Virus record (IMG/VR): IMGVR_UViG_3300043449_000139
Span: 1 to 36,903 of that record
From: a virus
Length of the DNA stretch: 36,903 nucleotides
Direction: 5' to 3' (one strand)
Part shown: positions 13,495-35,609 of the stretch, piece by piece
Numbering within the stretch: the stretch's first letter is position 1
Layout: each line of letters starts with the position of its first letter
Notes under the pieces: generated by a model
The model's database searches: none
The model's input: the letters and a program-made list of their open reading frames with translations, nothing else
Told to the model about the DNA's origin: nothing
Translations under genes and position numbers: made by a program

Positions 13495-13523
13495 TTGACA
13501 ACATTTTAAAACTTGACTATAAT
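13495..13523 (+). promoter_or_regulatory. Consensus promoter reading into oppositely oriented genes
   Basis: Plus strand TTGACA (13495-13500), 17-bp spacer, TATAAT (13518-13523), perfect. No plus-strand gene follows; the next genes (13648 onward) are on the minus strand. Its transcript would be a non-coding RNA or antisense to the early small genes. I see no clear terminator before 13648. Confidence 0.8.
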
Positions 13524-13647
13524 GCTTTACGACATTACTATCGTTGATTGTTTCTTAATGTTAGTTATAAATCATTACTTCATAGCAAACAACATAGATA
13601 CATCATAGACTATATAGAACCTATGATACCCGCAAGCGAGGGCAGAA

Positions 13648-13893
13648 TCAACGCTCCTCCCAGTAGTCATCAATCCCGTCATCGTCATAATCTTCTATGT
13701 AGTCATCATCCTCCAACAACTCACCATTGCCCGTATCGCTTTCACTTAACAGGTCGTTACGCACTTGTACAGGGATATAGGCATCAACTGATTTAAGGCA
13801 GGTAGAGCACATCTCCAAGAATTGCCTAGTAATACCATGCCGAATCGTTGACTCATAGTCATTTAATGCTGTATTGCAACAAATACATCTCAT
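13648..13893 (-). CDS. Zinc-ribbon protein with acidic tail, 81 aa
   Basis: The N-terminus MRCICCNTALNDYEST with MCSTCLKS about 25 residues later forms a four-Cys zinc site. The last third is extremely acidic (LLEDDDYIEDYDDDGIDDYW). Small phage proteins with a CxxCxxxLxDYE start are common and of unknown role. An acidic tail could mimic DNA or bind a host protein, which is inference. AGAAGGG lies upstream of the ATG. Confidence 0.7.
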   Translation of the reverse strand: MRCICCNTALNDYESTIRHGITRQFLEMCSTCLKSVDAYIPVQVRNDLLSESDTGNGELLEDDDYIEDYDDDGIDDYWEER

Positions 13894-15942: not shown

Positions 15943-15971
15943 TTGACAGAATCACGAAAGTATGCTAAAAT
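15943..15971 (+). promoter_or_regulatory. Main structural-gene promoter
   Basis: TTGACA (15943-15948), 17-bp spacer, TAAAAT (15966-15971). The predicted start is near 15978, giving a leader of about 195 bases before terS. It is the only strong promoter ahead of the packaging and head genes. Confidence 0.9.
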
Positions 15972-15977
15972 CGCTTT

Positions 15978-16146
15978 ACAAGTGAAAAGCACACAATAAA
16001 GATACTGTATAGTCCCCTTCGGGACGACAAGTTATAGCGCCCTGTAGCACGGGGGACGAAAACCAATAGGTTGTCCCCCTCTCCGATAGCGAACAACGAA
16101 TCTTCCGATAGCACTCTATAGTATTTATAGGGCTTTAGTTTTTTTT
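15978..16146 (+). ncRNA. Structured leader / possible attenuator RNA
   Basis: Hairpin 1 is GTCCC (16012-16016) with GGGAC (16021-16025). Hairpin 2 is GGGGGAC (16051-16057) with GTCCCCC (16073-16079), enclosing AACC/GGTT with an AATA loop. TCCGATAGC occurs at 16082-16090 and 16104-16112. A terminator-like hairpin and eight T end the segment. The 5' GTCCC could also pair with the GGGGGAC of hairpin 2, so competing folds are possible. No small gene with a ribosome site is visible inside. It could be a short non-coding RNA, an attenuator for the structural operon, or both. Confidence 0.6.
16114..16146 (+). terminator. Rho-independent terminator-like element before terS
   Basis: Stem CTCTATA (16114-16120) and TATAGGG (16126-16132) with one GU pair and a 5-base loop, a 6-base gap, then TTTTTTTT (16139-16146). 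The stem is AT-rich and set slightly back from the T-run, so termination is likely partial, allowing read-through into terS. Confidence 0.6.
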
Positions 16147-16171
16147 ATGTCTCCTATTAGGATAAAGACTC

Positions 16172-16636
16172 ATGTCAGATGATTTGTCTTCAAACGAAGT
16201 GTTGGTGGTTGAAAAACCTAAAAGACCAAAGATTAAACGACGTGAAGTTGTCAATGGGAAACCTAAGCGTGGTCGTCCAACAAAGGCGGCTATCGCCAAG
16301 AAAAAGAATCCCGGCATACTGGGTAGACCTCCCGGCGATGCTGCTAGGATTGCTGAGTTTAAGGCTAGACTACTAGCCACTGCTGGTGATAGTGTTATTA
16401 CAAAGATTATAGAGACTGCATTGGCGGATGGTCATCCAGCGCAAGGGGCAATGCTCAAGTTCTGTGGAGAACGATTATTACCATTATCTAGCTTTGAGGC
16501 TAAGAGTGGTGGCGGTACTCCGCAGATTAGTATTAATATTACTTCTTTGGGAGCGCCACAGATAGAAGAAGCTGAAGTAGTTGACAGTATTAGTTACACT
16601 GATGTAGAATATAAAACTGAAGGGACCGACTCGTAA
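16172..16636 (+). CDS. terS: Probable terminase small subunit
   Basis: A 154-aa basic protein encoded before the large terminase gene. The N-terminus has two AT-hook-like basic stretches (KRGRPTKAAIAKKK; GILGRPPGDAARIAEF). A helical region follows (KARLLATAGDSVITKIIETA) and GAMLKFCGERLLPL, with an acidic tail (EEAEVVDS). The layout fits small terminase or packaging proteins that recognise phage DNA and recruit the large subunit. AGGA lies about 10 bases before the ATG. It is the first gene after the leader RNA. The assignment rests on position and general character. Confidence 0.72.
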   Translation: MSDDLSSNEVLVVEKPKRPKIKRREVVNGKPKRGRPTKAAIAKKKNPGILGRPPGDAARIAEFKARLLATAGDSVITKIIETALADGHPAQGAMLKFCGERLLPLSSFEAKSGGGTPQISINITSLGAPQIEEAEVVDSISYTDVEYKTEGTDS

Positions 16637-16694
16637 GAGCTTTCAGCACGTCGCAGGTGCGTGCGGTCAAACACCTGTACCACTCCTCTGAAAG
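16624..16694 (+). other. Pseudoknot-like RNA element between terS and the HNH gene
   Basis: Three pairings are visible: GACCG (16624-16628) with CGGTC (16664-16668); CTTTCAG (16640-16646) with CTGAAAG (16688-16694); CAGGTG (16654-16659) with CACCTG (16672-16677). The first crosses the second, forming a pseudoknot. CTC-GTAA-GAG (16630-16639) is a small GNRA-capped stem, and CACG/CGTG (16647-16650, 16660-16663) is an alternative to the third. It starts over the terS stop and ends at the HNH ribosome site. Confidence 0.45.
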
Positions 16695-16701
16695 GGATAA
16701 A

Positions 16702-17112
16702 ATGATTAAATGTACGAAATGCGCTGTAGAGCGTCCTGAAACAGATTATCACTGGCACTATCGTGATAAAGGTATTAGAAGAAAACATTGTAAAATTTGT
16801 AGGTCTGCTGTTGAAAAGAAAAGACAACAACAAGATACATATAAAGTAAAACGACAAGACTATTGTTTACAAAAGAATTACGGTATTACAAAAGAAGAAT
16901 ACGAAGTTCGACTAGAAAAGCAAAACTACTCGTGTTTCTTGTGTAAAACAAAAATTGGGAATAAAGCCTTAGCTGTAGACCATTGTCATACCACAGGCGC
17001 TGTAAGAGATTTATTATGTAGTCCTTGTAATACTGGACTAGGTTCTTTTAAAGACAATCCACAACTGCTAAAAGATGCAGCGGACTATATAGAAAAACAT
17101 GGCAGAACTTAA
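16702..17112 (+). CDS. Endonuclease VII-like HNH endonuclease at the terL start
   Basis: From the ATG at 16702 (GAAAGGGATAAA upstream) the product is 136 aa. N-terminal zinc pairs CTKCAVERP and CKICRSA are followed by YGITKEEYEVRL, CFLCKTKIGNK, VDHCHTTGAVRDLLCSPCNTGLG and an ADYIEKH helix. It is the same family as 1917-2312. The frame is open back to 16621 but has no good earlier start. The 3' end overlaps the terL start by 14 bases. Lying between terS and terL, it is best read as a homing endonuclease inserted at the terL start and using the terL ribosome site. Confidence 0.87.
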   Translation: MIKCTKCAVERPETDYHWHYRDKGIRRKHCKICRSAVEKKRQQQDTYKVKRQDYCLQKNYGITKEEYEVRLEKQNYSCFLCKTKIGNKALAVDHCHTTGAVRDLLCSPCNTGLGSFKDNPQLLKDAADYIEKHGRT

Positions 17113-20788: not shown

Positions 20789-20817
20789 TTGACTTTTTAA
20801 TAAAGTTGTGGTAAAAT
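20789..20817 (+). promoter_or_regulatory. Promoter for scaffold and capsid genes
   Basis: TTGACT (20789-20794), 17-bp spacer, TAAAAT (20812-20817). The expected start is near 20824. Just downstream a near-palindrome centred on AGTACT (20832-20845) and AAGT repeats may form an operator. It would boost scaffold and capsid transcription. Confidence 0.85.
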
Positions 20818-20866
20818 ACTAAAAATAAGTAAGTAAGTACTCACTTCTCCTAAAGGACAAAGAAGA

Positions 20867-21130
20867 ATGATGGATGAAAAGCTACAAGCCTATTACGAGG
20901 CGAGATTCTCGATGATGGCAACAGAAGGTTGGAAAGACCTGATTGAAGATGCTCAAGGCTTCTTTGATGGAATAAATAAAGTAGCAGCAATACAGAATGA
21001 AAATGATTTGTTTATGAAGAAAGGTCAGTTAGACGTTCTTCAGTGGCTTTTAAGCCTTAAAGACAGTTCATCACAGACCTACGAACAACTCATGAACGAC
21101 TCTTCGGGAGAAGCTCAGCATGAGTCTTAG
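20867..21130 (+). CDS. Hypothetical head-region protein, 87 aa
   Basis: A helical, acidic 87-aa protein (EARFSMMATEGWKDLIEDAQ; KKGQLDVLQWLLSLKDSS). Small proteins of this type (EGWKDLIED...F..KGQL..L) often precede the zinc-ribbon and scaffold genes in related podoviruses, as I recall. Function unknown. It is the first gene after the 20789 promoter, with AAAGGA upstream. Confidence 0.72.
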   Translation: MMDEKLQAYYEARFSMMATEGWKDLIEDAQGFFDGINKVAAIQNENDLFMKKGQLDVLQWLLSLKDSSSQTYEQLMNDSSGEAQHES

Positions 21131-23207: not shown

Positions 23208-23241
23208 CTGCCCCGGTAGCGACTGCTGGGGCAGTTTACTT
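23208..23241 (+). terminator. Terminator after the capsid gene
   Basis: CTGCCCC (23208-23214) pairs with GGGGCAG (23228-23234), with an inner AGC/GCT pair, followed by TTTACTTT. A strong GC stem with a short, interrupted T-run suggests partial termination. The left flank, TTGACTCTGCCCC, closely matches the repeats at 15540 and 15567. Confidence 0.72.
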
Positions 23242-35562: not shown

Positions 35563-35584
35563 AAAAAACCCCTCCGAAGAGGGG
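35563..35584 (-). terminator. Rho-independent terminator for the minus-strand half
   Basis: Read on the minus strand: CCCCTC (35584-35579), TTCG loop, GAGGGG (35574-35569), then TTTTTT (35568-35563). A textbook terminator 25 bases after the reductase stop. It ends the whole replication transcript. Confidence 0.95.
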
Positions 35585-35609
35585 CTAAAGTACTACCACA
35601 CACAAGGAA

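Follow-up and report, generated by a model that had tools for sequence, protein, structure and literature searches.

A predicted structured leader and a Shine-Dalgarno hairpin upstream of the terminase genes in a lineage of uncultivated freshwater phages

Introduction

The late genes of phage lambda are preceded by a strong promoter, pR', and a leader of fewer than 200 nt with a T-run (6S RNA, terminator tR'). Other phages carry a structured RNA of about 170 nt, such as the pRNA of phi29, a phage that lacks the small terminase subunit TerS, or translational operators such as the T4 gp32 and RegA targets and the MS2 coat operator. The put RNA of HK022 suppresses both intrinsic and Rho-dependent termination by way of the beta' zinc-binding domain. 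It comprises about 70 nt, forms two stem-loops and resides on early operons, with putL located just downstream of its promoter (PMC9378689).

Here, we analyze the region in front of the late genes of a virus that belongs to a lineage of uncultivated freshwater phages without isolates (virus record IMGVR_UViG_3300043449_000139). The window, i.e., the whole stretch of DNA under study, comprises the 36,903 bases of this record. How late genes are switched on is of particular interest in these phages, which have neither a close isolate in the phage collection nor a Q-type antiterminator nor a detected RNA polymerase. An original prediction, made from the letters of the window, had described a structured leader of the structural operon in which competing hairpins would control termination. 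The leader itself is borne out by folding energies beyond chance and by co-varying helices, and the proposed check for covariation among relatives revealed compensatory changes in three of its helices (P1, P3, and P4); the termination control found little support.

Genomic setting and relatives

The early genes are located on the minus strand and encode a primase/helicase, parts of a family A DNA polymerase, a gp2.5-like SSB, a RusA-like resolvase, and a ribonucleotide reductase whose gene runs across both ends of the record (the names polymerase and reductase were assigned by eye from the sequence). The late genes occupy the plus strand from terS to about 35.5 kb, and the region studied lies directly 5' of terS. 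This first late gene (16172-16636, plus strand) encodes a protein of 154 aa, regarded as the small terminase subunit by position, for which no Pfam or PHROG match was found. The same holds true for the 87-aa product of the gene at 20867 (20867-21130), which sits between portal and scaffold. An endonuclease VII-type homing-like gene (PF02945) is present between terS and terL (16657-17112), and genes of a similar HNH type break up the primase and polymerase regions. A terminator-like hairpin is located just 3' of the major capsid gene (23208-23234) and recurs, with different sequences, in all 15 unique relatives. At the far end, a canonical minus-strand terminator (35567-35586; AGCCCC, TCTTCGG and AGGGGTT, then a T-run) closes the early operon ending with the RNR gene and faces the end of the late operon.

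The predicted promoter before the leader was confirmed as a sigma70-type element, TTGACA-17-TAAAAT with TG before the -10 (15943-15971, plus strand), and nearly all relatives have an equivalent; transcription in the window would start at about 15978. The next strong promoter on this strand (TTGACT-17-TAAAAT, 20789-20817) serves as the gene at 20867's own. This agrees with the statement that all head genes up to 20.8 kb depend on a single promoter, although a weaker match occurs inside terS (16581). Elsewhere on the late strand, a perfect consensus promoter (TTGACA-17-TATAAT) is followed by an RNA-like unit of about 110-130 nt (13495-13650), which overlaps the early ORF 13648-13893 in antisense orientation at its 3' end and is conserved, with its position kept, in about 20-25 relatives; it may act as an antisense RNA, prime replication, or serve as a second leader.

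A search of IMG/VR with TerL yielded hundreds of relatives, all of them environmental contigs. Where TerL is 76-100% identical, the leader layout recurs; it is invariably single-copy and flanked by a sigma70-type promoter and terS. A DNA-level comparison with the phage collection gave no match, and the TerL relatives in that collection are distant (at most about 29% identical among the matches listed). DNA patterns for the window-type leader, termed class I, and for class II matched 63 and 38 contigs, respectively. All 44 unique class I motifs are situated upstream of terS/terL, as are 34 of the 35 unique class II motifs, the exception lying at a contig end; a motif search of the bacterial and archaeal genome collection did not retrieve class I. 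Class II and III leaders combine a 5' hairpin with a 17-bp closing helix that shows compensatory changes, and the class II leader forms one closed domain with paired ends. More distant relatives have other structured leaders at the same position, some of which fold well; one of these distant types, type V, has no excess folding energy. At three type V loci (L147, L163, and L168), the region upstream of terS is leader-like, very different and strongly conserved in sequence, and could be another kind of element. The original statement that the leader is not recognized as a known family agrees with Rfam: when the window and 12 related loci were searched, none of 4227 families gave a match reaching the family cut-off (a single sub-threshold chance match fell on the minus strand), and a literature search retrieved no description of these leaders.

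The upstream domain of the leader

The leader in the window has a fold z of -1.78. The mean for 25 homologous leaders is -2.25 versus -1.27 for upstream DNA, and that for class II is -3.68 versus -2.31, with the antisense strand scoring nearly as well as the leader strand in this comparison. Applied to all class I leaders aligned together, RNAalifold returned only two pairs, since turnover of P2 and P3 leaves them misaligned; alignment-free arm tests were used in its place.

Helix P1 is formed by CAATAA (15994-15999; CTATAA, CTATAT, or CAATAC in relatives) and TTATAG (16032-16037), with one A.A mismatch in the window. It was the top helix in an unbiased scan, 95.7% of its cells are paired in 50 sequences, and one pair changes between A-U, U-A, and C-G. 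The two predicted hairpins are both present. P2 (GTCCC-CTTC-GGGAC, 16012-16025) has a sequence that turns over in relatives, e.g., to CTGC..GCAG. P3 (16051-16079) pairs GGGGGAC with GTCCCCC and AACC with GGTT around the loop AATA, giving 7 + 4 bp and a 3-nt bulge, GAA; 20 distinct stems occur in 55 leaders, and Watson-Crick pairing amounts to 97% for matched arms versus 53% for swapped arms. Further downstream, the block ATAGCGAAC (16086-16094) is near-invariant in the class I alignment and looks unpaired. It is followed by P4 (ATC-TTCC-GAT, 16100-16109), a hairpin of only 3 bp whose arms co-vary (ATC/GAT, GTC/GAC, GCC/GGC) and are paired in all 15 distinct rows tested; none of 500 shuffles reached its covariation score. 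The element TCCGATAGC is indeed found twice in the window, as predicted (16082 and 16104), but is not kept as a repeat in relatives, where the second copy, which is the 3' half of P4, varies to CGACAGC and CGGCAGC. The block CTATAGTA coincides with a weak hairpin, P5 (CTATAG/TTATAG, 16116-16130), for which covariation was not shown. Its 5' half is almost invariant while its 3' half drifts, and CTATAGTA would therefore be recognized as a sequence rather than as a hairpin.

Two further candidates were rejected. A long-range helix, P0, between the 5' end of the transcript and the bases before the T-run showed GTTCA/TGAAC swaps by eye but no significant support (p = 0.29 and 0.17). A boxA-like signal in the linker reaches at least 8/9 in 7 of 45 linkers against about one expected, but these sequences are related, and the window scores 6/9. 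Judged by the substitution patterns of its helices, the leader is real and under selection.

A conserved hairpin at the Shine-Dalgarno sequence

Directly 3' of the T-run lies a hairpin that the original prediction, while correct about the adjacent leader, had missed, and that is the most widely conserved part of the leader. This hairpin, P6 (GTC-TCC-TATTA-GGA-TAAA-GAC, 16149-16169, plus strand), holds the Shine-Dalgarno sequence of terS. Its general form is arm-UCC-loop-GGR-YAAA-arm, in which UCC pairs with GGA of the Shine-Dalgarno sequence and YAAA is a 4-nt bulge in the outer stem. Of the 268 terS loci for which sufficient upstream DNA was available, 247 have P6, which occurs there in 71 unique sequences with co-varying arms. 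Among 41 forms of equal length with seven pairs, all four outer pairs co-vary and 96.2% of the cells are paired, a percentage inflated by the selection of forms by pattern for at least three (terS loci) or at least four (all fetched DNA) outer pairs. Independent evidence comes from the variety of the arm sequences, from slid controls (covariation score 0.437 versus 0.171 in shuffles and at most 0.078 when slid) and from the near-zero count in reversed DNA, where a single copy with at least four outer pairs was found as opposed to 152 unique copies in all fetched DNA.

The distribution of these 152 copies is narrow: 82 precede terS, 41 precede homologues of the gene at 20867, three lie in front of a small ORF situated between leader and terS, and for the remaining 26 no ORF was found. 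P6 in the fetched DNA precedes almost only terS and the gene at 20867. In the window, the second copy (CTTC-TCC-TAAA-GGA-CAAA-GAAG, 20844-20865, plus strand) stands immediately before the latter gene, and both copies come after promoters (15943 and 20789). P6 alone is only moderately stable in the window (-3.6 kcal/mol) and may therefore influence translation only slightly. Across the subclades compared, the sequences indicate that the upstream fold varies, whereas its position and P6 stay the same.

Proposed function and alternatives

The reading that we favor, at a probability of roughly 55%, is that of an untranslated leader of the late mRNA for packaging and head proteins, which is read through by the polymerase, in which P6 gates translation of terS and whose upstream domain acts in cis. 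Host sigma70 RNA polymerase would start at about 15978 and most likely read through the leader into terS. The transcript would contain two modules. The first is the folded upstream domain with P1-P4 and the invariant ATAGCGAAC and CTATAGTA, which appears at a constant position with an architecture that differs by subclade; it probably acts in cis, with the polymerase, the stability of the RNA, or P6 as its target. The second is P6, predicted nearly lineage-wide to hold the Shine-Dalgarno sequence of terS in a paired state and present also before the gene at 20867. It most likely sets or regulates translation of both genes as a translational operator or brake. Conservation, position, covariation, and Shine-Dalgarno pairing are features of the aligned sequences themselves; from them we infer that translation is limited or regulated by P6, that the polymerase normally passes through the leader, and that the upstream domain works in cis. 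The conserved leader together with the shared Shine-Dalgarno hairpin provides a concrete, testable control point for late genes and adds two candidate RNA elements not represented in Rfam.

For the upstream domain, the leading idea by analogy is put-like antitermination, which would be compatible with the role of P6 but which we regard as tentative. According to this idea, the domain acts as RNA only, binds the elongating host polymerase, and lets it read past pause sites and terminators along the late operon of roughly 20 kb. It fits the location at the start of a long-operon transcript and the strong terminator-like hairpin that all 15 unique relatives have behind the major capsid gene, although this terminator may simply be leaky. 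No Q-family antiterminator was detected in the genome (PF03589 and PF06530, for which the positive controls matched) and no match to a phage RNA polymerase (PF00940, in a search without positive control), and HK022 put RNA works without a dedicated protein factor (PMC9378689). On the other hand, no two-stem put-like fold is common to the classes, the architecture varies, and a boxA-like sequence occurs in few members only. Still more speculative is an RNA-only device in which the leader modifies host polymerase without a phage protein and P6 is a two-gene operator tying TerS to the product of the gene at 20867 or to another phage protein.

It is unlikely that the leader is a passive stabilizer of the 5' end of the late mRNA without a specific partner. 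Many different hairpins could serve this purpose, and the architecture does turn over between subclades, but the invariance of ATAGCGAAC and CTATAGTA and the covariation within the 3 bp of P4 point to specific recognition.

We consider it quite improbable that the leader is a termination or attenuation switch at 16146, like the terminator in the leader of lambda pR'. The eight T are present in the AT-rich linker upstream of terS as predicted (16139-16146, plus strand), they follow a strong promoter and about 170 nt of leader, and a T-run of at least five T occurs in 46 of 58 unique leaders. The predicted terminator-like hairpin at the leader end, however, is a short, AT-rich stem (CTATAG/TTATAG) separated from the T-run by 8 nt, and a scan of the plus strand between 15000 and 17500 found no terminator. 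Roughly a fifth of close relatives lack the T-run; in some otherwise near-identical leaders a TTAAAAAATT-like sequence takes its place, and no such run follows class II leaders. The alternative pairing GTCCC:GGGGGAC can form in the window but recurs with a match of at least 5 bp in only some close relatives; a conserved mutually exclusive pairing, the hallmark of an attenuator, was thus not found, nor was the tested long-range helix abutting the T-run supported. With no GC-rich stem, losses of the T-run, and no conservation of the alternative pairing, these comparisons make a termination switch unlikely as a general function; this particular phage could have such a switch at 16146, and since T-runs persist in so many close relatives, there may be a weak or conditional transcript end nearby.

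Least probable of all is a leader cut or terminated into a small RNA that acts in trans, whether in packaging as phi29 pRNA does, on the host polymerase as 6S RNA does, or on host mRNAs. In its favor one could cite the constant position next to the terminase genes, the single closed class II domain with paired ends, and the presence of another conserved RNA-like unit on this strand, but any late operon starting with terS gives the same position, there is no conserved end, the folds differ between subclades, and these phages, unlike phi29, have TerS.

Comparison with known systems

The leader resembles that of lambda pR' in its strong promoter, in its length of fewer than 200 nt before late genes, and in its T-run. 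It differs in that neither a Q-family antiterminator nor a supported intrinsic terminator at the leader end was found, in that the T-run is not universal, and in its co-varying RNA structure. With phi29 pRNA it shares a structured RNA of about 170 nt in a phage genome; here, however, this RNA is the 5' leader of terS mRNA, its sequence and fold vary, TerS is present, and the location beside the terminase genes follows from terS being the first late gene.

As with HK022 put, host sigma70-type polymerase appears, given the predicted start, to make a phage transcript that carries a folded RNA close to its 5' end, and no dedicated antiterminator protein was found. Unlike put, the leader has about 170 nt, comprises P1-P5 plus P6, belongs to a late operon, and folds differently in each subclade; instead of the size and two stems of put, class II presents a different, closed domain. 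The leader is therefore not a member of HK022 put RNA, and put would serve as a functional comparison. The closest parallel for P6 is provided by the phage translational operators, i.e., the T4 gp32 and RegA targets and the MS2 coat operator: P6 is a conserved hairpin that pairs the Shine-Dalgarno sequence, holds the ribosome-binding site, and is common to two genes. It is set apart from them by the 4-nt YAAA bulge after GGR and by its conservation at terS across an uncultivated lineage, in which it probably acts as an operator.
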